DNA from: a virus
DNA: 35,301 nucleotides
Strand: one strand, 5' to 3'
IMG/VR virus record: IMGVR_UViG_3300024518_003081
Location: 1-35,301 of that record
A program made the position numbers and the translations under genes. Shown here one piece after another: positions 4-32,437 of this stretch. The first letter of the stretch is position 1, and the number at the start of each line of letters is the position of its first letter. The notes beneath the pieces were generated by a model that was not told the DNA's origin, made no database searches, and saw only the letters and a list, made by a program, of their open reading frames with translations.

Positions 4-915
4 TCACTTAATCCCCCGGAAGATATCCGCGACATATAAAGCATAATCGGCATAAGACAATTTTTCAACTATTTTCCTGGCAGATTCTCGCCTATAAACA
101 ATTGTAGCTAAGGTCTCGATTAAATCCTCTACGTCGTCAAATGGATAATCTACAGGAATTTCATTCTCTACCCAACCAACCCTACTAGCAATAATTGGTA
201 TGCCCAAAGCAGCCGCCTCTATAAGGCTCATTGGGCCACCCTCCCATTTAGAAGGAATTAGAAGATAATCTATATTGTTGTATTCGGCCAAATAATCCTG
301 TGGATAATTACACTCCGAATCTTGTATACATCGGACGTCCGCTTTACCTTTTAGTTTTATTACTACGTCACCCCAGCCACTACCAATAAATAGCCATTTG
401 TAGGATGTTGCGATTGGAGAATCTATAACGCAGTGCATTACACCGTGGCCCTTACCCTCGTGCTTGCCTCGCTGAAATATTCCAATTGTTGGTTTTGTGT
501 ATTCGAAGCCTTCGGGAATTTCCCCTGGCATTTTACATGTCATAGGTGGTTTAAATTGGTCGTATCTATAGTCACATAAGAAAAGACTATATGAGCGCCT
601 ACTCATATGAATAATGTGGTCTAGAGTATGCCACCAGAATTTAATATTTTCGTTGTCGTTCTCATGAACATGAGTAAATAAACCAACGTCCTTGCCGCCA
701 CTTCGTCCACGATAACAGTTAGTTACGTCCACATAGAAGTTGTTCTCACCTCTTCTAGGGGAATAAGTTAGTTCCATCTCTACGTCTGGCGGCGCATTCA
801 TTACGATACGCTCGGCAATTTTTGAGAGAATCCAGCCGCTCTTGACCGTAACAACGTTTATTTTCATTTTCTCTCTAGTAGCCAGGATGGTCGGCTTTGG
901 CGCAATAGCTAACAT
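4..915 (-). CDS. GT4-like glycosyltransferase (GT-B fold), last gene of the cluster
   Basis: Predicted 303-residue retaining glycosyltransferase that would transfer a sugar from a nucleotide-sugar donor. The C-terminal donor-binding half is recognisable: around residues 219-252 it reads PSKWEGGPMSLIEAAALG followed by IPIIASRVGWVENEI, the E-x7-E-type signature of GT4 enzymes. The N-terminal acceptor half is poorly conserved and the protein is shorter than the usual 350-400 residues. The start is uncertain. The ATG at 915 follows the upstream stop directly and has GAGG about 6 bases upstream. An internal ATG at 867 (protein then begins MKINVVTVKSGW) has only AGAGAG before it, but gives a more typical GT-B N-terminus. 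The gene closes a run of glycosyltransferases. Family confidence is good; sugar and acceptor are unknown. Confidence 0.75.
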   Translation of the reverse strand: MLAIAPKPTILATREKMKINVVTVKSGWILSKIAERIVMNAPPDVEMELTYSPRRGENNFYVDVTNCYRGRSGGKDVGLFTHVHENDNENIKFWWHTLDHIIHMSRRSYSLFLCDYRYDQFKPPMTCKMPGEIPEGFEYTKPTIGIFQRGKHEGKGHGVMHCVIDSPIATSYKWLFIGSGWGDVVIKLKGKADVRCIQDSECNYPQDYLAEYNNIDYLLIPSKWEGGPMSLIEAAALGIPIIASRVGWVENEIPVDYPFDDVEDLIETLATIVYRRESARKIVEKLSYADYALYVADIFRGIK

Positions 916-1734
916 TTATTCCTCAGGCCATCCGGCGAGCCCTACAAAATTCCCATCGGTCCAGCCGGGGACGGGGCCAATCTCGTAATCCTCATTATTC
1001 TGGGGCGCCTCTTCGCCTAGATAAATGTGGCGCGCGAGAGCCTTACAATCGTCAGCGGCTTTAGCCTCTTCGACCTTACTGCTTCCTGTAATTTGGCCAC
1101 CGTGAACCCTAAAGGCGGCGAGGGGATTTTTAATCAAACCAAACGTGCAATGTTGCGCGGCGCGAACTACCCAGTGGAAATCCTCACAAATTCTAGGCCA
1201 ATATGGCCCAGTCTTAATCCATAAATCTTTCTTGTACATAAAGGACATTCCCACGTCATATCCGTGAACGAGGTCTGGTCCTTGTTGTGGGGCATCATGG
1301 GTAATATTCGAAAGAACCTGACCACGCTCATTCATAAAGACGAAGTCTGAATAAATTAATCCGATTGGCGCCCCTTCTTTTTCTACCTGCTCAAATGCTT
1401 TAGTAAAACATTCGATAAACCTATCGAAGTAGATGTTGTCGGCACTACACCAAGTAAGGTATTTACCACGACTAAGCGCATGACCTAAATTAATAGCACT
1501 GCCGGTTCCACCGTTTTCCTTTTTGTAGTATCGAAGGTTACGGTGGAAACTGAATTGGTCTACGATTTGTTTGGTATTGTCAGTTGAGCCATCGTCGATA
1601 ATGATAATCTCGGCGCCCTTATGGGTTTGATTAATAAGCGAATTCAAAGTTTGTTGGAGATATTTCTCACCATTATATACGGGAACGGTAATTGATATTG
1701 AGGGAATTTTTTCATCTATATTAATTTCGCGCAT
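916..1734 (-). CDS. GT2 family glycosyltransferase (GT-A fold)
   Basis: Predicted 272-residue inverting family 2 glycosyltransferase. Residues about 12-55 carry the GT2 start, with ITVPVYNGEKYLQQTLNSLI and then EIIIIDDGSTDNT. SADN at about residue 97 stands where the metal-binding DxD motif usually lies. The CEDFHWVVRA segment near residue 183 matches the acceptor-side ED motif that supplies the catalytic base. No membrane segment is seen, so it is probably a soluble cytoplasmic enzyme. The ATG at 1734 has GAGGTATC just upstream and overlaps the end of the preceding 138-residue gene by 14 bases. The stop at 916 abuts the next glycosyltransferase gene, so the two are probably co-translated. 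Confidence 0.85.
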   Translation of the reverse strand: MREINIDEKIPSISITVPVYNGEKYLQQTLNSLINQTHKGAEIIIIDDGSTDNTKQIVDQFSFHRNLRYYKKENGGTGSAINLGHALSRGKYLTWCSADNIYFDRFIECFTKAFEQVEKEGAPIGLIYSDFVFMNERGQVLSNITHDAPQQGPDLVHGYDVGMSFMYKKDLWIKTGPYWPRICEDFHWVVRAAQHCTFGLIKNPLAAFRVHGGQITGSSKVEEAKAADDCKALARHIYLGEEAPQNNEDYEIGPVPGWTDGNFVGLAGWPEE

Positions 1735-2137
1735 GATACCTCTTACAATATTCTCTTGCTCTTCGGAGTGAATTAGAATAACCCTGCATAGCTGTTATAA
1801 CTCTGTCCCAAGAATCAGGAATAGTAAATCCTTCAAGAATAAGTCCTCTAAATAAACGTTCTTGGGTTACACTTCCAACGCTTTTCATGGAAAGTATATC
1901 AGAAGGCTCAATTACCAAAAGCTCTTCTGTTGAAGAATCTTCTGAAAGATTAAAGGACTTTAGTCCACTAATAAGCCTTCTATACGTATGATTAAGATGT
2001 TTTTTTAAATCCAATATTTTCTTACCACTTGTACCAATACTATCTATTCTAGCAGCCAGACTTGCCCACCTCATCGCATTATCTGGACAAGGCATAGCTT
2101 TAAACGCAAGCATAGCGCGCCTTAATCTATTATCCAT
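1721..2137 (-). CDS. Hypothetical 138-residue protein with a helix-hairpin-helix-like segment
   Basis: I do not recognise this family. The protein is basic and mostly helical. Residues about 76-105 (PSDILSMKSVGSVTQERLF, then a helix ending LEGFTIPDSW) resemble a helix-hairpin-helix unit like that of the RNA polymerase alpha C-terminal domain (L-x-x-[IM]-x-x-[VI]-G-x-x-T/S). That similarity is by eye and weak. The start ATG at 2137 has GGAG about 7 bases upstream. The gene sits between two glycosyltransferase genes and overlaps the next by 14 bases. A nucleic-acid-binding or regulatory role inside a sugar cluster would be odd, so the call stays hypothetical. Confidence 0.7.
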   Translation of the reverse strand: MDNRLRRAMLAFKAMPCPDNAMRWASLAARIDSIGTSGKKILDLKKHLNHTYRRLISGLKSFNLSEDSSTEELLVIEPSDILSMKSVGSVTQERLFRGLILEGFTIPDSWDRVITAMQGYSNSLRRAREYCKRYHARN

Positions 2138-2167
2138 GAAGTTGCTCCGACTCTGTATACATGTATG

Positions 2168-3220
2168 TCATACCTTAATTACGTTGTAAAAAGACTTGGT
2201 CTTCTTCCAAGGACCCATCATGAATAGAGCGATTGTTGGTAGTGCATCTGCGGCGTAGACAAAGTTGTCTTTCCAATTGACAAACTTTGGAACCTGTTCA
2301 TGATTGAGCTTCTGCTCCTCGTCTATATCATAGAGCGGGTCAATCTTCCCTATTTGTGGATGGTCCCCTAGTGCCGCCGGATGCGAGTTATTAAATTCCA
2401 AAATAGTATCGTGTGGTTCGGTCCCCTCCATAAACTCCACAAACTTCTCGTCAAACTTATCAGAAGCGTTAGTTCCATCAGAGAGTTTAAACTTTTCGAG
2501 TTCACCCTGATAAAATTCTTTCTTCATCTTGTGGAATTCTTTCCCCTTAGCATGACCGTAGTGGTATATCCAGAGACCGGGAATTGTGAAGCGGTGTGGC
2601 TGATATCCTCCTGTGAAATACGTACATTGCCCTTGTCCGTCCGTAGCCACCGGATGTGTGTGATACCTGAGACCCGGCCTATATCTGATGATTCTTTGGT
2701 GTTGTGGTTGCCACTCTGGATGGGGAGCTTTAATGTGGTAGAAGTCTCTATAGAAGTGGAGGAACGTCGGAACAATCTCCGAAGCGGTAGGACGTTTAGC
2801 AATAGCTTTCCTAACACGGTCAATCTCGCCTTCCATGTAGAACTCGTCACAATCAATAATGAATAACCACTCACCATCATTTGCATAGTCTAAGAATGTT
2901 TGTTTTTGTTCTTCCAATGACTTGAAAAACCTGTTTCCGGTATATAGCTCAATTTTAGAGTCAGGGTCTGGGAAGGCTTTAATAATTTCAAGCGTTCTGT
3001 CTGTCGAATGGCCGTCATTTGTGCTTCCAGGGCGCCCCTGAACAGCCCCTTCGACAATTCTAATAATGTCGAACTCCTCGTAGCAGTTAGCCAAATTGTA
3101 AGCAACCCAATCCTCCTCGTTGTGCACGGCTAAACACTTGACAAGCTTAGTCTGGGGCCCGGTATGATTAACCTCGGCCAGAATTCCCACCATTTGTTTT
3201 TGCTGTTGTGGCTGATTCAT
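2168..3220 (-). CDS. GT2-like glycosyltransferase
   Basis: Predicted 350-residue glycosyltransferase of the GT-A type. Residues about 27-45 begin the fold (KLVKCLAVHNEEDWVAYNL). A D-G-H-S-T-D-R-T segment near residue 70 matches the DDGSTDxT loop, and WLFIIDCDEFY near residues 118-128 supplies a clear D-x-D metal and nucleotide-sugar site. The middle is rich in His, Tyr and Trp (FLHFYRDFYHI, YRPGLRYHTHP), as in family 2 or 92-like enzymes that recognise a polyanionic or glycan acceptor. The start ATG at 3220 has GAGGAAGA upstream and shares ATGA with the end of the small gene before it. The 30 bases after its stop, before the next gene, hold only a short palindrome. Confidence 0.8.
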   Translation of the reverse strand: MNQPQQQKQMVGILAEVNHTGPQTKLVKCLAVHNEEDWVAYNLANCYEEFDIIRIVEGAVQGRPGSTNDGHSTDRTLEIIKAFPDPDSKIELYTGNRFFKSLEEQKQTFLDYANDGEWLFIIDCDEFYMEGEIDRVRKAIAKRPTASEIVPTFLHFYRDFYHIKAPHPEWQPQHQRIIRYRPGLRYHTHPVATDGQGQCTYFTGGYQPHRFTIPGLWIYHYGHAKGKEFHKMKKEFYQGELEKFKLSDGTNASDKFDEKFVEFMEGTEPHDTILEFNNSHPAALGDHPQIGKIDPLYDIDEEQKLNHEQVPKFVNWKDNFVYAADALPTIALFMMGPWKKTKSFYNVIKV

Positions 3221-3375
3221 TCTTCCTCGAATACCGTAACCATTCTAATGTTGTGAAGAGGAATAACCATACTAGGACCTTCACCAGTAAATATCATTAC
3301 GCCATGAATAATTGTATCCGCATCCGCAATTATTTCTTCAGTTACTCCATCTACATAGTTCACTATATACTTCAT
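3217..3375 (-). CDS. Small 52-residue protein between two glycosyltransferase genes
   Basis: A short open frame of 53 codons including the stop. The product starts MKYIVNYVDGVTEEIIADAD and ends with three Glu. It alternates hydrophobic and polar residues as in a small beta-sheet protein (IVNYVDG, GVMIFTGEG, SMVIPLHNIRMVTVF). I do not recognise a family. Support for a real gene is positional: its ATG forms an ATGA with the stop of the glycosyltransferase gene upstream (3372-3375), and its own TGA forms an ATGA with the start of the next one (3217-3220). It fills the only gap there exactly. It is probably translationally coupled to both neighbours. Confidence 0.75.
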   Translation of the reverse strand: MKYIVNYVDGVTEEIIADADTIIHGVMIFTGEGPSMVIPLHNIRMVTVFEEE

Positions 3376-4508
3376 AACACTTCTACTATTTTCTTAACAG
3401 AATTTTCCCAAGTGAATTTTTTAGCCGTTATATTGCACTCATGTATTCTGCGACCTAGAGCGCCGCTATATACAGGTTCAACATCTGGCTTAAGGTTATT
3501 AACTTCAGTTTGTTTCAAACCATGAGCCTCACGCATTTTATCCACAAGGTCATCCACACTATAAGTGCACCACTCACCTTCACCGTGGAACCAAACTCCA
3601 TCCTTAGCCGGCTCCATTCCTTTGGGTTCTACTAGGAAGGAATTTATCCTGTTACAAAACTCGGTGTGACCGGAATAATTCGTTACTATTGACGGCACAC
3701 CACAGGCCATAAGTTCAATAACTTCTAAGTTCCACCCTTCTGCATGAGCGGGAAACACGCCAAAGTCTACGTGATTAAATACCTGGCGCATTTGTTCCTG
3801 AGTTTTCATACGCGGAAGGAGGTCTACCTTCATGCCCAGTTCGCTGGAAATATACTTGCGCTTCCATGTCTCATTGCCCTTCGGGCCGATAAAATCGTTT
3901 GTGTTCATCATCCATAGTTTGACGTCGTCGTCTTTAGTAAATGCTTTGGAGAATGCTTCGCATAGTTCGTTGTGACCTTTACGAACTTCCCACTTACCGA
4001 CATTTAAGAATACAGTTGTGTCTTTGGTCCAATACGGGCGATTTTTTCTGGCATCCGAATCAACGAAAAATACCTCGGGGTCCACGCCTAAAGGAATCAC
4101 ATCGATTGGAACATTCACACCGTTTTCTTGACAAATGGTCTTGGCCCATTCGGAACATACAAATAGACGGTCCACGCTATTAAGTTGGTGGAGTTCCTGG
4201 TCTTTGAACTTATTCAATTCAAAAATAGGCCACCCAATTCGCTCGCCCTTACCGACGAATTTATCCAGTTCATGTTGGTGCCAAATCCTAACGCAAGGCG
4301 CGGTGGGGTCATAGAGTTTTGCGTTTGCCAGGCTTGTTTTAATTATCTCGATGTCTTTAAGGTATGGCTCTAAGTCCCTGTCCTGAAGAGGGTTATTGAC
4401 TGGAAACAGACTTACTTGGTGACCAGCCTTATGGAGGGCCTTCAGAACATTAAACCCGGTGACGCCATAGCCCAAATTATTTATTGGCGCAATTAGATTT
4501 ACAAACAT
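3372..4508 (-). CDS. GT4-like glycosyltransferase (GT-B fold)
   Basis: Predicted 378-residue glycosyltransferase. The N-terminal domain begins MFVNLIAPINNLGYGVTGFN, with the glycine-rich first loop typical of GT-B enzymes. The C-terminal domain has FLNVGKWEVRKGH (about residue 170), VDFGVFPAHAEGWNLEVIEL and MACGVPSIVTNYSGHTEF (about 248-285), which are hallmark GT4 donor-binding motifs. I chose the ATG at 4508, which overlaps the previous stop as TGATG and has GGGGGA about 5 bases upstream. A TTG one codon earlier is also in frame but less likely. The protein is similar in layout to the next two upstream genes, so these probably arose by duplication. Acceptor unknown. Confidence 0.85.
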   Translation of the reverse strand: MFVNLIAPINNLGYGVTGFNVLKALHKAGHQVSLFPVNNPLQDRDLEPYLKDIEIIKTSLANAKLYDPTAPCVRIWHQHELDKFVGKGERIGWPIFELNKFKDQELHQLNSVDRLFVCSEWAKTICQENGVNVPIDVIPLGVDPEVFFVDSDARKNRPYWTKDTTVFLNVGKWEVRKGHNELCEAFSKAFTKDDDVKLWMMNTNDFIGPKGNETWKRKYISSELGMKVDLLPRMKTQEQMRQVFNHVDFGVFPAHAEGWNLEVIELMACGVPSIVTNYSGHTEFCNRINSFLVEPKGMEPAKDGVWFHGEGEWCTYSVDDLVDKMREAHGLKQTEVNNLKPDVEPVYSGALGRRIHECNITAKKFTWENSVKKIVEVL

Positions 4509-5731
4509 CAATTCCCCCTAGCAGTCTTCCACTTGATATAGTATCTGCCAATTACGTCGCGCAACTGAGGCCCAATCTTTTCGTGGGAAAAATCCCCAAC
4601 CCTATGACGAGCGGCGGCGACCATTTTGTTCCATTTAGTTTCTATTTCAGTAGATTTAGATACGGCCCATAGACTATAAGCCTCCCGCATTGCTGCCTTA
4701 AGCTCGTTTACATGCGGCTCTGCCCAGTTTTCCCTAGCCGTATAGAGGTATGGGAATGGATGTGGCATATCACAAACCGGACTCATGTTATATGGAACCA
4801 GCCATCCGCACTCAGGCGTAATAAATTCTGTTGGTCCGGCCCAGTTTGTTGCGATAGCGGGAAGCCCATGTCCCAACGCATCAAAGTGTGGGATTGACCA
4901 ACCCTCGCCCCTTGAGGGTAGTGCATAACAATTGGCGGTTTTGTATAGACGAGCTATATCCTCATCACTCATAATTTCGTGGATTAAATGGATTGGCGGA
5001 TAATTGTTTAGCCTAAGAATAGCCTTCATGGCTTTAATAATATGTTGGACGCGCTCCTTTTGTTCCGGTCCGTCCTGTGGTCCGACGTATGTTTTGAGAA
5101 TAAGAACAACGTTTTCTTCTGGACCAAACTCGCTTAGATATGCTTTTAGCAGTGGGTCGACACCCTTCTTCTTAGAATACTGACAGATTGCCAAAAACTT
5201 AAACCGGTTCGATAATCCAGGCATATCAAACGGTTTAATCTCCTTCTTGTATTTCTGGATATCGGTCGCAAAGTGTACCTTTTCAACAGGAACGATTACA
5301 CCAGAACGCTTACACGCTTTAACATTCTCGTCACACGATACAATGACAAGGTCCATTTTGTTAAGTTCATTTACCCATTCCGGCGGGATTGTATCAGTCT
5401 CCCAACAAAAGATATTGACGTTGAATACGTTCTCTTTGCGCTCCGTTTCATTTGGTGTAGTATGTTGAATAACGATATCGACACCTTGAACATCTTCATT
5501 CGCCAACTTGTCTTCTCTTGGTGTTCTATCATAGGTTCCTCCGTCGTAAATAACATCGCGTGTTACCAGATTAAGACCAAGAGCATCTAGAGAAGAAACG
5601 TAGTCCCGCGCCGCGTGCGCGTAGCCGGAGAAATCTCTCAGCGGCCCAATATAAAGAATTTTGGCGTGATTAATATTGGATAACATTTTCTTTCTATCTA
5701 GCAGTCCGCGCGATGTTAGTGTAGCCATCAT
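4508..5731 (-). CDS. GT4-like glycosyltransferase (GT-B fold)
   Basis: Predicted 407-residue glycosyltransferase. ILYIGPLRDFSGYAHAARDY (about residues 25-44) is the N-terminal glycine-rich loop. FKFLAICQYSKKKGVDPLLKA starts the C-terminal domain, and CYALPSRGEGWSIPHFDALG with LPAIATNWAGPTEF is the GT4 donor-binding signature. Tandem ATGs occur at 5731 and 5728; the first shares ATGA with the upstream stop and is taken as the start. The stop overlaps the next gene's ATG (TGATG). No signal peptide or membrane segment is seen, so action in the host cytoplasm on a virion protein, lipid-linked sugar or similar acceptor is inferred. Confidence 0.85.
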   Translation of the reverse strand: MMATLTSRGLLDRKKMLSNINHAKILYIGPLRDFSGYAHAARDYVSSLDALGLNLVTRDVIYDGGTYDRTPREDKLANEDVQGVDIVIQHTTPNETERKENVFNVNIFCWETDTIPPEWVNELNKMDLVIVSCDENVKACKRSGVIVPVEKVHFATDIQKYKKEIKPFDMPGLSNRFKFLAICQYSKKKGVDPLLKAYLSEFGPEENVVLILKTYVGPQDGPEQKERVQHIIKAMKAILRLNNYPPIHLIHEIMSDEDIARLYKTANCYALPSRGEGWSIPHFDALGHGLPAIATNWAGPTEFITPECGWLVPYNMSPVCDMPHPFPYLYTARENWAEPHVNELKAAMREAYSLWAVSKSTEIETKWNKMVAAARHRVGDFSHEKIGPQLRDVIGRYYIKWKTARGN

Positions 5732-7392
5732 ACAAGAACTCCAGGCATAGTATTGGTTTTTTGTTCAGAAGCTTGCTCTGGTTGCAGGCCGCGAATCTTC
5801 AAAGAATTATTCCACCTCATCTCTTCAAAGATATTTTGCCCTACAATTTCGTTACGGAAAAATTGCTCTACAGACTCCCTGCTGCCATTCTTAGCTAACG
5901 AAGCCATCCAGTCATTAAAACCCTTCTCGTCTGCGACTCGTCCGAGAATATTTGTATAACACCAATGAACGAAATCTCCATTGGACATCCCCTGCGGTGG
6001 CCTATCATGGGTCATAGACTTAAATTTTGGCCGCCTGTTCCACGTGCCTTCTCTATCAAGAGCTTCAATTTCTTCAAAGAGCTTAATAAATTTTTTGGCA
6101 GTTACCTCCCAGTCGTGGAGTTTGACCGCACATTCTCTTGCTTTAATCGAAAGCTTCTTTCTCTTCTTGGCATTAATACATAACAACTCAAGCTTCTTCA
6201 GGAAATCGTCGTTGTCTGGTAATGAACGAATAGCCATGGTCTCGGCTTCGGTATAAAAGCGCCCAATTTTAATTGGTAAGCCGCCGCCATTTTCTACGTG
6301 GTCTTCCATAGCAGAATAGTTCTGATATAGACCAGGAACGCCACAAGCCTTGGCCTCCATAATCGGAAGACCCCAGCCTTCGCAAATAGCCGGCTGCACA
6401 TAGATATCCATGAGGTTATAAATCTCGATTAATTGTTCTTCAGTTACACCGCTATGGGTATTAGGCATATGCGCGGTTTGTTTACCACAAATTCGGCAGA
6501 TACCCATTCCTTGTTTGTTACAAGGGATAAACCATGAGTGGAATACTTCTTTACAATCCTCGCATTTGTAAGTGAATATAACGTGGCGCGCTAAACCATA
6601 TCTCTCTAGAAGCTCTGGAATATCCCAGCCATTATCGGGCCAGCTGGTATGACACAAAAGAGCGCTGTGATTAATTCTTACAATTTTGCCGTCGTTCTTG
6701 TTTTTCTTGGTCATTCTATATTTACGACGGAGTTTAGAATAGACCTCGAAAAGCTCGGGGAAAAGCTTTCTCTTTTGGTTACGCATTACCGTACCAATAA
6801 TAAGTAGGGATGATTTTATTTGATACTTGTCTCGGATATATTCTCGACTTATCGGTTTAAATATCTCTGGATTAATACCGGGACTAGTCACGCCTGCAAC
6901 TTTAATACCTTCGGCCTCAAGAACTCGCTTGCCATATCTACTATAAGTGGTTACTACATTGGCTTTACTAAATAATCCTTGTATCCAATCCTTCCTCTGG
7001 GGTGCAGAGTCTACGGTCGGCATAAGAACCAAGCGGAATAAATCCCTAAACTTAGCGTCCTGCAGGTGTTGTGTCATCCAAGGGTCGCGCGCATCAAATA
7101 CGATATCAGGTTGAAAATCTGCCAACACCGCGTTTATTTTATATGCGCCAAATGCATTGTGGGGATTTGAATCGTATATTTGTTTTTCTTTTTGGCTGTT
7201 GGGCAATACTCCATAGTATTTCCAGGGGAGCTTCTTTGCCTCTGGAGACCCATCGTTTCCATAGGAGCCCATCTCGGCAATTTCAAACTTGCCGGTAGAA
7301 TGGAGTCTTTTCAGAATTTCTCTATTGTATTTGGCAAAGCCTGTAGAGAGCCATGAAGACTCCCCACAGACTAGTATTCTACATTTGCCCAT
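5728..7392 (-). CDS. GT4-like glycosyltransferase with zinc-knuckle insert and DUF4214-like C-terminal domain
   Basis: Predicted 554-residue multidomain protein. Residues about 4-440 are a GT-B glycosyltransferase: RILVCGESSWLSTGFAKYNR at the N-terminus, and YVQPAICEGWGLPIMEAKAC with GVPGLYQNYSAMEDHVENGG (about 331-370) as the donor site. Between the two conserved parts of the C-terminal domain lies C277-x2-C280 with C299-x2-C302, which could bind zinc. Residues about 470-525 (GDFVHWCYTNILGRVADEKG, then FNDWMASLAKNGSRESVEQF and F) match the pattern of DUF4214, a domain found next to surface and glycan-related proteins. The start ATG at 7392 has AAAGGAG 6 bases upstream. It is the longest and probably first glycosyltransferase of the cluster, following SSB after a 56-base gap. 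Confidence 0.85.
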   Translation of the reverse strand: MGKCRILVCGESSWLSTGFAKYNREILKRLHSTGKFEIAEMGSYGNDGSPEAKKLPWKYYGVLPNSQKEKQIYDSNPHNAFGAYKINAVLADFQPDIVFDARDPWMTQHLQDAKFRDLFRLVLMPTVDSAPQRKDWIQGLFSKANVVTTYSRYGKRVLEAEGIKVAGVTSPGINPEIFKPISREYIRDKYQIKSSLLIIGTVMRNQKRKLFPELFEVYSKLRRKYRMTKKNKNDGKIVRINHSALLCHTSWPDNGWDIPELLERYGLARHVIFTYKCEDCKEVFHSWFIPCNKQGMGICRICGKQTAHMPNTHSGVTEEQLIEIYNLMDIYVQPAICEGWGLPIMEAKACGVPGLYQNYSAMEDHVENGGGLPIKIGRFYTEAETMAIRSLPDNDDFLKKLELLCINAKKRKKLSIKARECAVKLHDWEVTAKKFIKLFEEIEALDREGTWNRRPKFKSMTHDRPPQGMSNGDFVHWCYTNILGRVADEKGFNDWMASLAKNGSRESVEQFFRNEIVGQNIFEEMRWNNSLKIRGLQPEQASEQKTNTMPGVLV

Positions 7393-7448: not shown

Positions 7449-7880
7449 TTAAAACGGCAAGTCGTCTTGTTTACCAGTGCCTGCGGCTACGGGCTCTTTG
7501 GTCTCACCCTGGGCCTTATCCTCGGTCCCTTCGCTCTTGTTTCCCCCATCGGTTCTCAGAGCCTGAATACTGCTACCGTAAATCTTCAGCTTACTACGCT
7601 TCTGCCCATCCTTCTCCCACTCATCAGTCTCAAGCTGACCCATGACGAGAACTGGTGTGCCTCTTTTAATATAAGCACCAGCATAGTCTGCCCTCTGGCC
7701 CCAAACCTCTACATCAACAAACGTTGACTTTTCCTCTTTAGTTCCATCACGTTTCTTAATCTGCCTATTGGAGACAATCCGAAACGTTGCAACCTTACTA
7801 GTAGGACTAAGCTCTTTGAGCCTAGCATCGGCTGTGGCCCTACCAATCATCCTTACTTCGTTCAAATAAAACAGTGCCAT
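7449..7880 (-). CDS. ssb: Single-stranded DNA-binding protein
   Basis: Predicted 143-residue SSB. The OB-fold core spans about residues 4-108, starting FYLNEVRMIGRATADARLKE and including TFRIVSN, STFVDVEVWGQRADYAGAYI and KRGTPVLVMGQLETDEW. It is followed by a flexible tail ending in the acidic tip DDLPF, the form of tail that binds replication partners. It would coat single-stranded DNA for the phage polymerase, helicase and RecA encoded upstream. I chose the ATG at 7880, which has AAGGGAGAG 4 bases upstream; an in-frame TTG at 7898 lies inside that leader and would add six residues. A promoter and a hairpin lie just upstream (7897-7956), so SSB probably has its own transcription start. The 56-base gap after the stop contains GC-rich sequence but no clear terminator. 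Confidence 0.93.
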   Translation of the reverse strand: MALFYLNEVRMIGRATADARLKELSPTSKVATFRIVSNRQIKKRDGTKEEKSTFVDVEVWGQRADYAGAYIKRGTPVLVMGQLETDEWEKDGQKRSKLKIYGSSIQALRTDGGNKSEGTEDKAQGETKEPVAAGTGKQDDLPF

Positions 7881-7896
7881 AATACTCTCCCTTTTC

Positions 7897-7919
7897 AAAA
7901 AATGGAGCCAGAATGCTCC
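7897..7919 (-). terminator. Hairpin with U-tract in the SSB leader
   Basis: On the minus strand GGAGC, a six-base loop and GCTCC form a 5-bp stem, followed by ATTTTTTG. This is the form of a short rho-independent terminator. It lies downstream of the -10 box at 7929 and upstream of the SSB ribosome-binding site, so it may stop transcripts reading through from the polymerase gene, or act as an attenuator or a 5' stabilising stem in the SSB message. The stem is short and I cannot tell these apart. Confidence 0.45.
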
Positions 7920-7963: not shown

Positions 7964-10357
7964 TTAAAGATGTTCGATTTTCCGAACAATGAAATTATTT
8001 TCATCCTTTTTCCCGGTCAATAAAACCGGTTTACCCTCTTCAATAATCCAAGAAGAATGTTTGTAGGTGGAGGAAAATACCACACATTCCATCATATACG
8101 TGTCGTCATGAGCCATTAGGAAACACATATGCTTTCCACGCTTATCCTTGATTCGTTTAACTTGACCAATAATAACGGCAATAGCGCCCTCTGTCCCATT
8201 TCTGAGACGGTGGAAGTCCCTACATCTAAAACTGGTATAGGGATTATTGTGGAGTTCAAGCTCGCTACCGCTCAGTGGGATACCTAAGTAGAACTTCTCA
8301 TAACCAATTGCCTTACGCTTCCTATTTCCATCGAGGTCTTGCATGACTTCGACTATTAATTCGGCCAGCTTTTTCTTTCTTGGCTTATTAGGTTTTTTGC
8401 CCTTCTCCTCAGATTTAATAAGAAGTCTGACGGCTTTTAGAATGTCATTACCACCTCTGGCAAAAAATTCCGAACTAACCAAATCGCGCTCACGGTCAGT
8501 AAGACCGCTAAGAATTTTATAGCGAACAAGCAATTCTACACGATTAACGCCTAGATAATCAAGGGCTCCTGATTTAATCAGCGCCTCCATTACATTCTTC
8601 TTTACCTTACTCCCTTTAACAAAAGACTTTAGGAGAAGCTCATTAGATTCCGTAAACTTTGAGATACGCTTTAAGCTGGCCACAGAAGTCTTACCGATTC
8701 CACGAATGTGTGTAAGTCCAAACGCGATGGTTTTTTCGTCTTGCACAGCAAAATCATTATTTAACAACTTCAAACATGGTGGCACAATATTAATGTCGAA
8801 CAGACGAGCCTCGTGGACTAAAGCCTGAACCTCTTCTTTGGTATCTTGCTTATCCTCGGAGTGAGTCAACTTGGCCTTGAAATATTGCAACGGGAAATGA
8901 CGCTTAGCATAAGCTGTTTGATATCCAATAATTGCATAGGACACGCCATGAGAATTTGATACAACAAAACCATCGGCTACCCAGTTGTGCTCTGGGGTGT
9001 CCATCTCAACATCATAGGTATCGTATTCTTCTGTAAATTCTTCAATATTTACAATGGTCGCAATTCCAGTCTTATGTCCTTTATCAAACCTCTTATTTCT
9101 ACCAAGCTTGTAATCTTCCTTTTTGTGACAAGAAACACAAAGTTTAATTAAATTGTCCTCTGTATTATTTGTTCTATCACCATCTATATGATGCCACTCA
9201 ATTCTATTGGGAATCATCAGACACATTTGGCAATAATTAATATTCCAATTCTTCTCTTTTATCTTTTCAAATGCCTTCCAGTTTCCATCGATAAACCCCC
9301 AGTTTTTCCTGCCAGTAGTATCGATTAAACCATCTTTATTTCCACGTTCTTTATCTTTATGAACACAATGGTCGTAAATATACTCGTCATCATATGAATC
9401 TATGTGACACACAACCTGTCCACCAATTCCTATTTCTCCGATAGTCTTCATTGTTCCATCTGGAGTCATAAATTTATGGTCAAGTGTACATGTAATACCA
9501 CGCCCACCATTGTCGGTCACCCTAACCATTTTCTTTTTTCCATTAAAGTGTATTGTCTTAATTGGCATAGGACGAATTCTGCCGTCCGCACAAACGGCCA
9601 TACATTTGCCATAACCTTTACTCCGAAGCTTTTTACGCAAAGGGATTTTCTGACAATCCTTAGCATATTGGTAATCATTAACTAACTTATATAGATGCTC
9701 AACAGTATAAAGACCAGAAGAATGCTGGTTTGCTGCGCCACGATTTAATACTGTATCACCACTAGCGCACTTATTAAATCCGTATCCACTAAACTTTTCA
9801 ATCCAGCCAAAGATTTCCTCGGCAATCTCTTTGTCGTGTCCACGACCAGCCGCTCCTTCAAGAAACATGACCTTGACCTTGGCCATAACATCGGCCTTTT
9901 TCTTACCCACAGCCTTACGAGCTTTATCGGCATCCTCAAGGGAGAATCCCGCGAAGTCCGTGCAGATACGCATGATTTGTTCTTGATAAACAGGCACTCC
10001 ACAAGTAGGGGCGAAGATTGGCTCTAGTGTTTCGTGGACATATTCGGGTTCAAGTCGTCCTTGCTTGACCTCTTGATAGGTCTCAGTAATTGAGAAATAC
10101 TTACCCGGCTTATCTTCTTTCTCACGATACTCAGCCTCCAAACAGCCTGGTCGGATTAAACTAATAACATCCGATAGCTCCTCAATATTACGAGGCTTAA
10201 GTTCCTTCGAATACTTCTTGCCTAAAGACCCTTCTAGCTGAAAAATACCTCTGGTGAAGCCGGAATTAATCAGGTCCCAGGTGGCCTCGCACTCTAAATT
10301 AATATCGTCGAAGTCGAGCTTATCGAATTGGCAGCCGCACTTAAACTTGTGTTTCAT
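7964..10357 (-). CDS. dnaE: DNA polymerase III alpha, C-terminal part, with an intein
   Basis: Predicted 797-residue precursor of the C-terminal half of a bacterial-type replicative polymerase. Residues 1-196 match the region just after the palm (GFTRGIFQLEG, ELKPRNIEELSDVISLIRPG, VPVYQEQIMRICTDFAGFSL, DADKARKAVGKKK, KFSGYGFNK). Residues 197-468 are an intein. Residues 469-797 resume at SHGVSYAIIGYQTAYAKRHF, then continue through a helix-hairpin-helix region (ALIKSGALDYLG) and an OB-fold region (AVIIGQVKRIKD, CVVFSS), and stop there, without the extended tau-binding tail. The spliced product would be 525 residues. The catalytic Asp residues are absent; they lie in the separate gene at 12833-14764. 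The ATG at 10357 overlaps the thymidine kinase gene by 17 bases. Confidence 0.92.
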   Translation of the reverse strand: MKHKFKCGCQFDKLDFDDINLECEATWDLINSGFTRGIFQLEGSLGKKYSKELKPRNIEELSDVISLIRPGCLEAEYREKEDKPGKYFSITETYQEVKQGRLEPEYVHETLEPIFAPTCGVPVYQEQIMRICTDFAGFSLEDADKARKAVGKKKADVMAKVKVMFLEGAAGRGHDKEIAEEIFGWIEKFSGYGFNKCASGDTVLNRGAANQHSSGLYTVEHLYKLVNDYQYAKDCQKIPLRKKLRSKGYGKCMAVCADGRIRPMPIKTIHFNGKKKMVRVTDNGGRGITCTLDHKFMTPDGTMKTIGEIGIGGQVVCHIDSYDDEYIYDHCVHKDKERGNKDGLIDTTGRKNWGFIDGNWKAFEKIKEKNWNINYCQMCLMIPNRIEWHHIDGDRTNNTEDNLIKLCVSCHKKEDYKLGRNKRFDKGHKTGIATIVNIEEFTEEYDTYDVEMDTPEHNWVADGFVVSNSHGVSYAIIGYQTAYAKRHFPLQYFKAKLTHSEDKQDTKEEVQALVHEARLFDINIVPPCLKLLNNDFAVQDEKTIAFGLTHIRGIGKTSVASLKRISKFTESNELLLKSFVKGSKVKKNVMEALIKSGALDYLGVNRVELLVRYKILSGLTDRERDLVSSEFFARGGNDILKAVRLLIKSEEKGKKPNKPRKKKLAELIVEVMQDLDGNRKRKAIGYEKFYLGIPLSGSELELHNNPYTSFRCRDFHRLRNGTEGAIAVIIGQVKRIKDKRGKHMCFLMAHDDTYMMECVVFSSTYKHSSWIIEEGKPVLLTGKKDENNFIVRKIEHL
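8954..9769 (-). mobile_element. Class 1 intein with HNH endonuclease in DnaE
   Basis: A 272-residue in-frame insertion between FSGYGFNK and SHGVSYA of the polymerase. It starts with Cys (CASGDTVLN) and has a block B-like ITCTLDHKFMTPDG. It ends in a block F/G-like segment, EEYDTYDVEMDTPEHNWVAD, then GFVVSN before a Ser +1 residue. The penultimate Ser instead of His is also seen in cyanobacterial DnaE inteins. The middle carries an HNH-type endonuclease: CxxC at intein residues 180 and 183, WHHIDGDRTNNTEDNLIKLC, and a second CxxC-H at 211-215. It should splice out autocatalytically. Borders follow from alignment with the uninterrupted DnaE motif FNKSHS. Confidence 0.92.
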
Positions 10358-10919
10358 TTATTTTCATACCCTTCTTCCAACAGTCAAAGCATCTTGGTTC
10401 ATACATATCGGCGCCACCCACTACGGTCTGGCGCGTATCATTGGTTGTTCTGAATGTCCTTGTGGCCGTATCAATTTTTCTACACTTGACGCAAACTGCC
10501 TTGAGCGAAACAATACAATCGGCAACCGATAGAAGATAGGGCATCGGGCCAAATGGAAATCCTTGGAAATCATTAGCAAGGCCGGCGCAAATAATATCTC
10601 TATCTAGAAGTTTACGAATAAGCCAGCAAAATTTGTCTGTATTAAAGAACTGACATTCGTCAAAAAACAAAACCCTATCTGGACTATATTTAGTGGCGTA
10701 AAATCCATTAAACCAAAGCTTATCTGGATTGTGCCTATCTAACATACCAGCCGGTATTTCTCGACCATCGTGAGTAGCGATTCCTTCAACGGAATATCTA
10801 TCATCATTAGATGGTTTGTAAACGGCAATCTTATTGCCAGCGATTAAATTAGACTTCGCAATAGAGATAAGTTTAGAAGTTTTGCCAGACCACATTGGAC
10901 CAGTAATCACTGTTAACAT
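10341..10919 (-). CDS. tdk: Thymidine kinase (type II)
   Basis: Predicted 192-residue ATP-dependent thymidine/deoxyuridine kinase of the salvage pathway. Walker A GPMWSGKTSKL is at residues 7-17, and the FFDECQFF Walker B segment carries the likely catalytic Glu at 88. The lasso loop is VVGGADMYEPRC near 167-177. A structural zinc site is formed by C143-x2-C146 and C177-x2-C180. Length is normal for the family, so the gene is intact although a homing endonuclease gene overlaps its start by 7 bases. The start ATG at 10919 has GAGGC about 6 bases upstream. It lies between the two polymerase halves. With ThyX and dUTPase it would support dTTP supply. Confidence 0.93.
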   Translation of the reverse strand: MLTVITGPMWSGKTSKLISIAKSNLIAGNKIAVYKPSNDDRYSVEGIATHDGREIPAGMLDRHNPDKLWFNGFYATKYSPDRVLFFDECQFFNTDKFCWLIRKLLDRDIICAGLANDFQGFPFGPMPYLLSVADCIVSLKAVCVKCRKIDTATRTFRTTNDTRQTVVGGADMYEPRCFDCWKKGMKINETQV

Positions 10920-11554
10920 ACGGAAGCCTCGATATAGCTCAGATATTTAGAGTGCTTTCTTACCAAGAAGAAATTTAATGGCGCCGAATATATCCAATCA
11001 CAAAGATTTTTAGAATCTGTAGTAGAATACGCAATTTTTGATATCTTACTATTGTTGTGTTTTAGGATACTTCTCTTATTAAAACTAAGCGTTTTATGTA
11101 GGTAGTCAGATAGTCCATTCAAAAAGTCATAAGAACCAAGAATAATGGTATAAAGCTTATTTGAACTATTACAAATACAGCCGTCGCCATCTATATATCC
11201 TCTAATAAAGTCTTTCATAAACAGACCGCTGGTTGGCCATTTCAAAGTTAACGATTTGTTTGATTTTAAACCATAAGAATTCAACAATTTTGCAAACTTA
11301 ACAGAATGAATTCTCATTCGTAAAGAATTCTCTCCATTAAAACCATCTTTTCTTTTAACGATATCAAACCTTGGATTTAATTCTAAATTGTATTTTAACC
11401 ATCCACCAATCTGTTTAAGGATATAGCCGTCTGACTCCTTTAATTTTATCTCAAGCCCACCTTTATGGATATAGCCGTCTGCATAAATAAGACCAAGTAT
11501 ATACGACCATTCCCCAGACATAGATGGTATTAGTATATCTTTTGCCTTAGCCAT
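10913..11554 (-). CDS. Free-standing LAGLIDADG homing endonuclease
   Basis: Predicted 213-residue homing endonuclease. Two LAGLIDADG motifs are visible: WSYILGLIYADGYI (about residues 16-29) and MKDFIRGYIDGDGCI (about 112-126), the arrangement of a single-chain, two-motif enzyme. There are no intein splicing blocks at either end, so it is a stand-alone gene. The ATG at 11554 overlaps the upstream stop (TAATG), and the stop overlaps the thymidine kinase start by 7 bases, so it has inserted without breaking its neighbours. Base composition is more AT-rich than the flanking genes, consistent with later acquisition. The natural target site is unknown. Confidence 0.88.
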   Translation of the reverse strand: MAKAKDILIPSMSGEWSYILGLIYADGYIHKGGLEIKLKESDGYILKQIGGWLKYNLELNPRFDIVKRKDGFNGENSLRMRIHSVKFAKLLNSYGLKSNKSLTLKWPTSGLFMKDFIRGYIDGDGCICNSSNKLYTIILGSYDFLNGLSDYLHKTLSFNKRSILKHNNSKISKIAYSTTDSKNLCDWIYSAPLNFFLVRKHSKYLSYIEASVC

Positions 11555-11841
11555 TATTGACCAGTCTTTCTTCTAAATTCCCGCTCTAAAGTTTTGCGGT
11601 CTTCAGCTTGCTGCGCTTTATTTAATGAGCCCTCACCCAAATCATGACCGTATTCCTTTTTATACCAGTCCCCGGCAAATACCTTATTTACATTTTCTGG
11701 CATTTGTGGAATGAATTTAATAACCCTCTTCATTGTATATCCACATTCACAAGCAAATGTCTTTTTGGGGTTAGTGCTTATTGGAAGATTTAAAACGGTT
11801 ACATTTTTACATTCACAACAGCGATAAGCGTAATTAGGCAT
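11554..11841 (-). CDS. FmdB-type zinc-ribbon protein
   Basis: Predicted 95-residue protein. The N-terminus MPNYAYRCCECKNV, followed by ACECGY and MKRVIKF, matches the FmdB/CxxC_CxxC regulatory zinc-ribbon family (P-x-Y-x-Y-x-C-x2-C ... C-x-C-G). The C-terminal half is charged and probably helical. Members are common as small nucleic-acid or protein-binding modules in phages, but their function is mostly unknown. The ATG at 11841 overlaps the preceding gene by 8 bases, and its stop is fused to the homing endonuclease start. A role as a transcription or replication accessory factor is only inference. Confidence 0.75.
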   Translation of the reverse strand: MPNYAYRCCECKNVTVLNLPISTNPKKTFACECGYTMKRVIKFIPQMPENVNKVFAGDWYKKEYGHDLGEGSLNKAQQAEDRKTLEREFRRKTGQ

Positions 11842-12313
11842 TTGGAATTTCCCACCTCTGGCACCACACTCCTTCGCTGATTATAGTGGTTTTTTTAACC
11901 AGGGCAAGCATGAATCTCTTCTTATCTCCACCGTTGGCGAACTTGACATCGGAAGCTGGATTAAAAAGAAATTCTTTGAGTGTCGTTGGGTCAAATAAAT
12001 AAACCTCAAACTTGTCGGTAGACGGACAAACGTAAACAATACGGTCGGCCTTGGTCTTACAGATTCCGGTCATACCTTTATTGTTGGCCACCTCAAAGCA
12101 CATATTGCCAGTTCTCTTGCTCATTTTGTCGTATTTAATTTCCAGGTCCATAGGTTTATCCATGTCGCCTTCTGGATAATATCGAATATCGCCACGTTTT
12201 TGCTCCCGCTTACCTTCGAGTTCATGGGCGACAAATCCTCGGTCGATTAAATAATCAAGGACTGCGTCGACAGCCACCTGGCTCTCGGCAAGGTCTTTAA
12301 GGAAGTTGCCCAT
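11834..12313 (-). CDS. PD-(D/E)XK nuclease-like protein
   Basis: Predicted 159-residue protein that looks like a small PD-(D/E)XK enzyme. An N-terminal helix (VAVDAVLDYLIDRGF) is followed by GDIRYYPEGDMDKPMDLEIK, giving an Asp and a downstream E-x-K (LEIKYD, about residues 57-62), the core catalytic arrangement. KTKADRIVYVC (about residues 87-97) resembles the next core strand of such folds. It lacks any obvious extra domain. Small nucleases of this kind in phages process branched DNA, degrade host DNA or are inactive. Start and stop overlap both neighbours (TAATG with dUTPase, 8 bases with the zinc-ribbon gene). Fold assignment is moderate; substrate unknown. Confidence 0.6.
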   Translation of the reverse strand: MGNFLKDLAESQVAVDAVLDYLIDRGFVAHELEGKREQKRGDIRYYPEGDMDKPMDLEIKYDKMSKRTGNMCFEVANNKGMTGICKTKADRIVYVCPSTDKFEVYLFDPTTLKEFLFNPASDVKFANGGDKKRFMLALVKKTTIISEGVWCQRWEIPNA

Positions 12314-12840
12314 TATTTCGTTCCAGTCGAGCCAAGCCCATCTTCTCCCCTAGCAGAATCGGACAACTCACTTACTTGCTCAAACTTGGCGCGAGGAGCA
12401 CGTTTGAGAACAAACTGCGCGACTCTTGTTTCAGGTTTAATAACTCGCCATTTATTTGTGTTGTTATGTAACAAAACCATACATGGTCCTCTGTAGCCTG
12501 AATCTATAGTTCCCGGAGCATTAGCTACAACCAAACCTCGCTTTGCCATCCCGCTTCTAGAACGAACTTGCATTTCCCAACCAGGCTGCAGCTCGATTTT
12601 TAATCCAAGGTCAAGAACAGCTGTGAGTCCTGGTCCAATAATACAATCATTGGCGACTGGAATAATAGAATTGTTCTTTTCGTCGAAAAACTTGTACGTA
12701 GATATTAAGTCTTGCAAAACACTAGGGTTCCATTTCTTATTTGAGACAAAAGAAACATCAGCACCAGCGTCGCCTGGTTTGGCATAAAAGGGAATCTTCG
12801 CATCTTTGTGTGTCAAAACAATCTTTACTACACTATCCAT
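12313..12840 (-). CDS. dut: dUTP diphosphatase (trimeric dUTPase)
   Basis: Predicted 175-residue dUTPase that hydrolyses dUTP to dUMP and pyrophosphate. It keeps uracil out of DNA and feeds ThyX. All five motifs are present: KPGDAGADV (21-29), RSRSGMAKRGL (93-103), NAPGTIDSGYRGPCMVLLHN (107-126), ETRVAQFVL (137-145) and RGEDGLGSTG (164-173), where Leu replaces the usual Phe/aromatic in the last. Between motif I and the PG turn at 70 there is an insert of roughly 25 residues, so the chain is longer than the usual 140-150. The ATG at 12840 shares eight bases with the end of the polymerase N-terminal gene. Confidence 0.94.
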   Translation of the reverse strand: MDSVVKIVLTHKDAKIPFYAKPGDAGADVSFVSNKKWNPSVLQDLISTYKFFDEKNNSIIPVANDCIIGPGLTAVLDLGLKIELQPGWEMQVRSRSGMAKRGLVVANAPGTIDSGYRGPCMVLLHNNTNKWRVIKPETRVAQFVLKRAPRAKFEQVSELSDSARGEDGLGSTGTK

Positions 12841-14764
12841 TTATATCCTCCTCGATATCGGCTAATACATCCATTGTTACGATTCCCAAAGCATCCATTT
12901 TTAAATAACCGAGGTCATCTAATACTTCCATATCCCACTCAGAAGTGTAATACTTACCGGTAGTATTCCACCTAAGTGGGAAGCCATTCTCAAATGGCTC
13001 ATCTGAAATAACCACGCCGGCAGCATGGGTACCGCGACCTCGTGGACAACCTTCAAGCTTCCGAGCAACCCTAAAGAGACGTGGGTATTTTTCCGAATAC
13101 TCCCTGATTTTGTCACTTGCTTCAATCGCATCAGCGATACTCATCGGCACATTGTGTTTCTTTGGAATAAAACGCGTCATAACGTTAGCGTCTTCGTATT
13201 CCATGCCGCCAGATTTACCCAATACTTTGGCCGCATCCTTAAGAGCCGCCTTAGACTTCATCCCTTGCCATGTCCCAATTTGGGCAACTCGGTCCTCGCC
13301 AAATCGCTCAGCAATATATCTGACAACGTCCATGCGCCGAGACTTGGGAAAGTCCGAATCAATATCGGCCAGCGAGCCTTTACGTCCTACGTTATAGAAT
13401 CTCTCCCAAATTAAGCCATACTTAAGAGGGTCAATTTTAGTAATACCAAGACAGAACGAAACCATCGAGCCGGCAGCTGACCCGCGACCTGGCCCCACTT
13501 TAATTCCCTGGCGCCGAGCCCAGTCAATGATATCCCAGACAATTAGGAAATAATCCGTGAGGTCTGCGTCCTTGATGTCGGCCAACTCTTTTTTCAGGCG
13601 GGCCAGATGAACCTTGGACATTTCTGAAACAGGTCCATAGACCTTCTCATATCCAGCAGCTATCAATAAGCGCAGGTAATGATATCCAGGGTCATCTTTT
13701 ACTTTCTCCTGAATCTCGATTGGAACAAATGCATATTTGGGCAAATGGAGTCCTGTCTTAATGTCATACTCCATAATCCTGTCTGCAATTTTGGCAGACT
13801 CTTCCACCTCGCCCTGAAGAATATCCGATAAACGACTCTCGCCATATTCGTTAATGATGTTCTCGTTTAGAATGTGATGGCCATCCTTTAGCCAATACTC
13901 CTTTGTAGAATAATACATACGGCATTCTTCCAACTTACAGTTGTGTCTGTGAGTTGGGTCGCCACATTTATCGTCTTCACATCTACCACGAGCCCACTTA
14001 ATATCACACTCTGTTGGCACATCAAACGTCTTTTTGGTCTTGCCAATAGTTCTAACGGCCCAAATAGCTTCGTGTCCCTCAGAGTCGTTCCTATCGATAT
14101 AATGGGAGTCTTGAGTCGCTACAACTTTAATCCCATATTTTTTACCAATACGGCGAAGTATCAAGTTTAATTTTAGTTGGACATCAAGCCCACCATCCAT
14201 TACTTCTAGGTAAAATCTATCCCCGAAAATCTCCCGATATTTCAGAACATATTTAACAGCCGCGCCATATTCTTCATTAAGTATGGCCTGATTAATTTGA
14301 TTCTTAAGGCAGCCGGATAGACAAATAATTCCATTGCTGAATTCGCGGAGGTCATTAAATCCAATGGTCGGACTGTAATAAAATTGTTTGTTGGCGCGCG
14401 TCACCAACTTCATTAAATTGACCCAGCCCTCATAGTTCATGGCCATGAGAGTGACGTGACCCTTTTTACGCTGCTTGGAACGAATCGCCTTTTTGGTTTC
14501 CTTATCCATATCCTCGCTAGGAGGTTTGGCATCTGGCACGAAATAAAACTCACAGCCTAGGATTGGCTTAATACCTTTCTTTCGGCACTCAGTATGAAAT
14601 ATAGGGGCGCCGCCAATATTTCCGTGGTCAGTTAGGGCAATAGAACTCCAACTAAATTCCACAGCACGCTGAACAATATCCGGGATTTTACTAATCGCGT
14701 CAAGCTCACTATAGTTGCTATGTATATGTAGGTGTGCCATCGGCACCTTCTGATATTTACTCAT
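12833..14764 (-). CDS. dnaE: DNA polymerase III alpha, N-terminal part (PHP and catalytic palm)
   Basis: Predicted 643-residue N-terminal half of a bacterial replicative polymerase. The PHP domain is at residues 8-240, with HLHIHSNYSELD, ALTDHGNI, ILGCEFYF and ATQDSHYI; its metal-binding His/Asp residues are largely kept, so it may be catalytically active. A Cys/His-rich insert lies at 253-281 (C262, C267, H272, H274, C276, C281). The palm has GPGRGSAAGS (424-433) and the catalytic pair D467/D469 in LADIDSDF. The third Asp, D624, is in YLKMDALGI. The protein stops 19 residues after D624, whereas E. coli DnaE runs to about 1160 residues. The start ATG at 14764 has GAGGAAA upstream. Fingers and beyond are encoded at 7964-10357. 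Confidence 0.93.
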   Translation of the reverse strand: MSKYQKVPMAHLHIHSNYSELDAISKIPDIVQRAVEFSWSSIALTDHGNIGGAPIFHTECRKKGIKPILGCEFYFVPDAKPPSEDMDKETKKAIRSKQRKKGHVTLMAMNYEGWVNLMKLVTRANKQFYYSPTIGFNDLREFSNGIICLSGCLKNQINQAILNEEYGAAVKYVLKYREIFGDRFYLEVMDGGLDVQLKLNLILRRIGKKYGIKVVATQDSHYIDRNDSEGHEAIWAVRTIGKTKKTFDVPTECDIKWARGRCEDDKCGDPTHRHNCKLEECRMYYSTKEYWLKDGHHILNENIINEYGESRLSDILQGEVEESAKIADRIMEYDIKTGLHLPKYAFVPIEIQEKVKDDPGYHYLRLLIAAGYEKVYGPVSEMSKVHLARLKKELADIKDADLTDYFLIVWDIIDWARRQGIKVGPGRGSAAGSMVSFCLGITKIDPLKYGLIWERFYNVGRKGSLADIDSDFPKSRRMDVVRYIAERFGEDRVAQIGTWQGMKSKAALKDAAKVLGKSGGMEYEDANVMTRFIPKKHNVPMSIADAIEASDKIREYSEKYPRLFRVARKLEGCPRGRGTHAAGVVISDEPFENGFPLRWNTTGKYYTSEWDMEVLDDLGYLKMDALGIVTMDVLADIEEDING

Positions 14765-21936: not shown

Positions 21937-22330
21937 GGATGAGCTTTATTATGTTTTCTTCCTTCGTCCCGGTGTCTATTTTTACAAGCCGAATTCTATT
22001 TAATTCGCACCACTCATCTTTGCGGGCATCGCGCTGCTGTTGTTTTTTAAAGCCACTCTTGTCCCCGTGAAAAAACTCAACGAACTGGTGGTGCTGTCTA
22101 CCCTGGACCTCAATGGCCACCTTTTTTCTGGGGACGAAAAAATCTAAATGGAGCCCTTCGCCACTACAGGGAAACTCCTCACATATGACATCGCCGGGGT
22201 AAAGCTCCGATAGGATATTCCCTACCTTTGATTGGAACTTTCCCCGACCTTCGCCATAAACGCGGCGCTCCCATCTGGATGGGCGGATATCTACAGAATG
22301 TTCACGACCACGAGTATCAAAGAACTTCAT
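21926..22330 (-). CDS. Vsr/DUF559-like PD-(D/E)XK endonuclease
   Basis: Predicted 134-residue nuclease. The core is GLHLDFFVPRKKVAIEVQGR followed by QHH (about residues 59-81): an Asp on one strand and E-x-Q on the next, as in Vsr, DUF559 and related small phage endonucleases. A helix with FKKQQQRDARKDEWCELNRI and the strand RLVKID follows, the usual end of the fold. It overlaps the RecA start by ATGA, so the two are co-translated. A role in recombination (for example a resolvase-like or nicking enzyme) is inferred from the neighbour. It could instead attack host DNA. The promoter for the next operon starts inside its last codons. Confidence 0.72.
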   Translation of the reverse strand: MKFFDTRGREHSVDIRPSRWERRVYGEGRGKFQSKVGNILSELYPGDVICEEFPCSGEGLHLDFFVPRKKVAIEVQGRQHHQFVEFFHGDKSGFKKQQQRDARKDEWCELNRIRLVKIDTGTKEENIIKLILDT

Positions 22331-30426: not shown

Positions 30427-30434
30427 CTTTCACC

Positions 30435-32429: not shown

Positions 32430-32437
32430 CTTTCACC

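Follow-up and report, generated by a model that had tools for sequence, protein, structure and literature searches.

Replicative polymerases are usually taken to require one unbroken core. In the stretch of viral DNA analysed here (the window, a linear IMG/VR record of 35,301 bases), DnaE is not one continuous catalytic chain, its parts being encoded by two ORFs that lie 2475 bases apart. The question raised by this locus is whether the two genes specify a polymerase made of two chains, a single gene that has been damaged or misassembled, or two proteins that act apart. Records of this type are often fragments, and the completeness of this one is unknown.

Gene layout of the DnaE locus

The initial annotation described two genes with five further intact genes in the 2475 bases between them, and this layout was recovered in full (Table 1). 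The two ORFs are intact, with 643 and 797 amino acids, and the five intact ORFs between them encode dUTPase, a 159-residue protein of unknown family, a Zn ribbon, a LAGLIDADG protein and thymidine kinase (TK). The domain content it assigned agrees with Pfam, which places PHP and DNA_pol3_alpha in the first gene and finger, HhH and OB domains in the second. The product of the first gene (the N-half) matches the PHP domain (PF02811, E 8e-44), with eight metal-ligand positions kept, and the Pol beta-type palm (PF07733, E 4e-76), with D467, D469 and D624 all present and 19 residues from D624 to its end, as had been read from the sequence. The product of the second (the C-half) has its domains in DnaE order, the Pfam OB match falling just under the cut-off (26.3 vs 27 bits). 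Removing the intein of 272 residues leaves 643 + 525 = 1168 residues, as calculated previously.

The gene overlaps at both junctions with the halves suggest translational coupling. An SSB-like gene lies downstream of DnaE not only in the window but also, judged from ORF translations, in four related loci (L003, L004, L007 and L008).

Table 1. Positions in the window of the DnaE genes, their sequence features and the neighbouring genes.
Feature	Position	Strand	Remarks
DnaE N-half: PHP, thumb, palm with three catalytic Asp	12833..14764	-	643 aa; corresponds to E. coli alpha 1-574
Catalytic D467 and D469 codons	13358..13366	-	
Catalytic D624 codon	12893..12895	-	19 residues before stop
DnaE C-half: fingers, HhH, OB fold	7964..10357	-	797 aa with intein, 525 without; corresponds to E. 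coli alpha about 581-1073
HNH-domain intein inside C-half	8954..9769	-	272 aa, C197 to N468, between FNK and SHG
CGC (C7, C9) at new C-half N-terminus	10331..10339	-	putative metal-binding cap
dUTPase gene between halves	12313..12840	-	start overlaps N-half stop
159-aa protein, unknown family	11834..12313	-	common to at least 12 split loci
Zn-ribbon protein	11554..11841	-	common to at least 9 split loci
Free-standing LAGLIDADG homing-endonuclease-like gene	10913..11554	-	at this place in the window only, among matches listed
Thymidine kinase (TK) gene	10341..10919	-	end overlaps C-half start
SSB gene directly downstream of C-half	7449..7898	-	Pfam

Other features of the window were recorded in passing. 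A run of glycosyltransferase genes (4-7392) lies beside the replication genes, a RecA/UvsX-like gene (22327-24390) has a LAGLIDADG-bearing insert at about residues 69-420 that is probably an intein, and four long genes (901, 804, 664 and 928 aa) at 25314-35224 are without a Pfam or PHROG match.

Conservation of the break across viral contigs

We searched IMG/VR with profiles of both halves and pooled the matches with loci fetched earlier; the resulting counts come from best matches and are lower bounds, not frequencies. In this pooled set, at least 109 loci have the halves in separate ORFs and at least 51 have a continuous gene. The split loci contain at least 91 distinct N/C pairs, nearly all from viral contigs other than the window, and because so many distinct pairs share it, the break is well beyond chance. 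Cellular relatives served as a control: of 80 matches listed, 79 could be scored, and all 79 were continuous.

All three catalytic Asp residues are kept in 94 of 94 split sequences, and finger residues are conserved across the split pairs. With dN/dS values of 0.005-0.09 in both halves, we infer that both are under strong purifying selection. The halves also diverge together (Mantel r 0.915, a value reached in 0 of 2000 permutations), and among split relatives divergence extends to about 31% identity to the window N-half.

These results bear directly on the possibility of an assembly or sequencing artefact, or of a pseudogene decaying in one phage. The window does come from a metagenome, its completeness unknown, and single copies are indeed interrupted by mobile elements, as in Alicyclobacillus phage KKP_3916 (L011) and the N-half of L077, both of which are in extra pieces. 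However, the same break occurs in at least 91 distinct pairs from public viral contigs, with intact ORFs, dN/dS far below 1 and every catalytic residue kept, and conservation thus already refutes an artefact, to which we assign practically no chance. The initial annotation had held that a full-length dnaE elsewhere in the genome, or close relatives with a continuous gene, would overturn its reading. A search for a full-length dnaE found none, there is no second PF07733 copy in the 35,301-base window record, and all closest relatives among the matches listed are split. Some human faecal MT83xxxx records and Pseudomonas phage Y1, which have a continuous dnaE, appear to be bacterial contamination and were excluded as phage evidence.

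Predicted folds of the two halves

The window N-half gave a confident AlphaFold model (pLDDT 90.2, pTM 0.90), as did the C-half of an intein-free relative, L015, which is 66% identical to the window C-half and from which the C-half structure was taken (pLDDT 91.3, pTM 0.87). The N-half model aligns with residues 5-637 of the Taq enzyme (2hpi; Z 43.4, rmsd 2.5, 557 aligned) and with residues 1-574 of E. coli alpha (2hnh; Z 39.1, rmsd 3.2, 558 aligned). The C-half model aligns with E. coli residues 581-1073 (5fku; Z 23.1, rmsd 8.1, 453 aligned) and with M. tuberculosis DnaE1 (Z 22.0, rmsd 3.4, 445 aligned), and given the lower rmsd to DnaE1, the high value against 5fku may reflect domain movement. 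Thus the two models tile E. coli alpha from 1 to 574 and from 581 to 1073, with the break directly after the last palm helix (N-half residues 629-642).

The C-half model can be aligned through the E. coli OB fold and no further: its alignment stops at 1073 of 1160, so that the phage enzyme lacks the tau-binding C-terminal domain of E. coli-type alpha (about 1074-1160). For this domain, the earlier view that little or nothing of the protein had been lost is wrong. The total length comes close to that of E. coli alpha despite the lost domain because the N-half has insertions. One of these insertions is a Cys/His-rich loop (about residues 245-290, window 13900-14000; CEDDKCGDPTHRHNCKLEEC), which has low predicted confidence and possibly binds zinc.

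We propose that the phage makes a C-family (DnaE-type) replicative polymerase as two chains from one tightly packed gene cluster. An N chain (PHP, thumb, palm) and a C chain (fingers, HhH, OB) would reassemble non-covalently, so that a native-like alpha would be rebuilt across the palm-finger interface. The cut is placed right after the last palm helix, in what is the linker of continuous DnaE, and would leave no domain broken. The heterodimer and its activity are inferred, since no complex was predicted and no assay was made; with that proviso we consider this two-chain arrangement highly probable.

An alternative is that the halves are rejoined, by a hidden intron or a split intein, into a mature single chain. 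Phage polymerase genes often contain introns or inteins, and the C-half itself carries an ordinary intein. However, the gap is filled by intact, conserved genes, and the intervening genes differ between clades; no intron was found at the locus in Rfam. As the initial annotation had noted, the broken ends (...DIEEDING and MKHKFKCGCQF...) are, by inspection, free of intein halves or intein-like sequence. Rejoining is therefore extremely unlikely in our estimation.

Other polymerases in related genomes

Another way to view the importance of the two genes is to ask what else could replicate these phages. We scanned 20 large contigs of 68-177 kb from relatives, of which 17 are split and 3 (L007, L102 and L105) are continuous. 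In every large split contig there is a single palm gene and a single finger gene, listed as two pieces wherever the gene is interrupted by an insertion or a break, and continuous L102 has two copies with identical scores. No match to PolA or PolB was found in any of the 20, and the family B domain PF00136 was likewise absent from them; the window lay outside that DNA scan. The two-gene DnaE thus appears to be the sole recognisable replicative polymerase of this large, mostly uncultured phage group. Since the window, like most of the contigs, may be incomplete, a further polymerase in the window's own phage cannot be fully excluded.

It could still be argued that the halves have separate roles: the N chain would be a PHP nuclease or nucleotidyltransferase and the C chain a DNA-binding factor, while a host polymerase replicates the phage. 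PHP and OB domains are able to act alone, and there is no assembly assay to set against this. Separate functions are nevertheless hard to reconcile with catalytic Asp and finger residues that are conserved across pairs, with halves that co-diverge, with the lack of another polymerase in the large relatives, and with the existence of continuous phage enzymes related to these and of one that is probably a re-fusion (see below), and we judge them very unlikely. We therefore retain the two-chain polymerase. The evidence in hand for it is the sequence itself, conservation, selection, co-divergence, the absence of another polymerase from the large relatives and separate predicted folding. The two-subunit polymerase without a peptide bond that had been suggested from the window alone fits all of these, its assembly and activity remaining inferences.

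Genes between the halves and proofreading

Among the matches listed, 77 of the 91 distinct split pairs have, between the two halves, a gene whose DnaQ-like product is about 227 aa long. In a test of five DnaQ-like proteins, the match to the RNase_T exonuclease family covers most of the family's length in four and its C-terminal part in the other. The placement of this gene suggests co-production of polymerase and proofreader. The window clade has no DnaQ-like gene between the halves; dUTPase, the 159-aa protein, the Zn ribbon and TK are found there.

PHP ligands are kept in the listed examples of split loci that lack the exonuclease gene, and all degenerate PHP sites are at loci with that gene. 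The pattern suggests that proofreading can pass to the DnaQ-like protein, but the degenerate cases are confined to a few clades, two of them are truncated by the end of a contig, and each locus spans only a few kb around the gene. Proofreading in most relatives probably comes from the DnaQ-like exonuclease whose gene separates the halves; in the window clade, with no such gene at the locus, the PHP site with its kept metal ligands may provide it.

A cysteine motif at the new N-terminus

A CxC motif starts 43 of the 94 split C-halves among the matches listed. A further Cys just before the TWDL helix (C23 in the window) is present in all 43 C-halves with the motif, compared with 3 of 51 without it, and the L015 model places the CxC motif between two short strands. 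A putative metal-binding cap formed by CxC and the third Cys is a reasonable guess, no fourth ligand having been identified. The coupling of the two features is strong in raw counts; on supported branches it comes down to 5 independent pairs, too few for significance. A Cys at column 459 was considered as the specific fourth ligand and rejected: it is present in 43 of 43 C-halves with CxC, yet 32 of the 51 that lack CxC have it as well.

History of the split

Most split sequences fall together in the tree, in a single large clade made up of a window subclade and an exonuclease subclade. A distant relative with a continuous gene, L007, is nested within the exonuclease subclade (SH-aLRT 98, 97, 95), and its exonuclease gene lies upstream of its continuous polymerase gene. 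Its linker has 48 residues, as does that of L104, compared with about 55 in most continuous genes, and it has retained the Cys ahead of the TWDL helix, a residue present in only 1 of the other 44 continuous sequences. An AU test rejected placing L007 outside the core exonuclease clade plus L119 (p 0.0005); for the core clade without L119, p was 0.115, not significant. Because of the nesting, the short linker and the kept Cys, L007 is likely a re-fusion and not the parent state, although with these two AU results this is not proven.

The continuous L096, L098, L104 and L105 adjoin the window clade, and a single split clade that unites the window and exonuclease clades and excludes these four was rejected (p 0.006), which implies that the split arose at least twice or that further re-fusions took place. 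Rossellomorea phage phiT1 (L009) and L143 also have the break at this linker and fall outside the main clade. The gene is continuous in Bacillus phage 276BB001, the isolate nearest to the phiT1 N-half. We infer from these relationships that the phiT1 split is an independent event. On the evidence of sequence comparison, the split is old and stable; either it arose at the linker repeatedly or it has also been undone, the number of events being unresolved.

As to origin only, a homing endonuclease may have caused the split, with the genes now between the halves as later arrivals. Endonuclease genes of three kinds do lie between halves (LAGLIDADG in the window, GIY-YIG in L015 and HNH-like in L002), and mobE in nrdA of phage Aeh1 offers a precedent (PMC2988022). 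However, the endonucleases vary by locus and are missing from most split loci, so that they too look like later arrivals, whereas the neighbours held in common are the DnaQ-like gene or the dUTPase and TK genes. The position of the L007 exonuclease gene makes a rearrangement equally likely. An endonuclease origin is thus possible, and we lean well away from it.

The two-chain polymerase can be set within a broader reading, to which we give slightly less than even credence. A major uncultured lineage would have an obligate two-chain alpha, mostly and probably as a three-gene alpha(N)-epsilon-like-alpha(C) arrangement, in which the new N-terminus of the C chain often has a split-associated three-Cys metal-binding cap holding the junction stable now that the linker is gone, and in which the split was reversed at least once by fusion.

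Comparison with known split polymerases

Split phage polymerases are already known. Group 2.2 jumbo phages have a minimal Pol III alpha in two separate genes whose products are thought to reassemble; an NTP-binding part and a Mg2+/template-binding part are encoded by distant genes, without other Pol III domains and beside a family B polymerase (PMC7824862). Like the window, these phages have a C-family polymerase in two genes; unlike them, the window split includes PHP, is cut after the third Asp and has its genes close together, and no other polymerase was found in the window's large relatives. In Aeromonas phages 25 and 44RR gene 43 is split (43A/43B) with no splicing known, and the phage 25 pair co-purifies and is active (PMC2988022); this T4-like polymerase is of family B, with another fold and cut site, whereas the window has C-family domains. 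Cyanobacterial DnaE is also encoded by two genes, its halves being joined at the intein site by protein trans-splicing (PMC3919608), whereas the window is cut elsewhere and its ends lack IntN and IntC. In phage Aeh1, nrdA was split by the mobE insertion and the two chains still work (PMC2988022), likewise a working phage enzyme in two chains, though a ribonucleotide reductase and not a polymerase.

In phiT1 (gp20/gp18, PV767480), an isolated phage, DnaE is cut at the same linker, with expected chains of 573 and 469 aa; it differs in having only a 49-aa ORF between the halves and no CGC motif. Rhodococcus phage Weasels2 (gp101/gp102, 305/947 aa) and Microbacterium phage Cybele (56/57, 345/767 aa) also have a two-gene DnaE, but by gene sizes the cut appears to detach PHP and, unlike that in the window, to leave the polymerase core undivided. 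No published report of a palm-finger DnaE split was found in the open-access literature. What is unusual here is the breadth of the split, the cut core of what is seemingly the only polymerase, and the link to an exonuclease gene.

The significance of the arrangement is that a catalytic core shared between two genes has persisted over deep divergence. That the palm-finger linker has been cut repeatedly marks it as a natural break point in C-family polymerases, and this would be useful for split-enzyme design and for studying the assembly of palm and fingers. Pipelines that expect a full-length dnaE may score such phages as fragmented.

Inteins and further interruptions of the halves

At 76% identity, the C-half intein is closer to its L003 counterpart than the exteins are to theirs (59%), suggesting a more recent transfer of the intein. 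A second, intein-like insertion is present in the N-halves of L003 (2027-5200) and L017 (2649-5900), that of L003 sitting within the conserved PGRG/SAAGS motif. In L077 (4114-7107) the N-half is in two ORFs with an extra ORF between them, so that its polymerase may be in three pieces or the copy may be broken.
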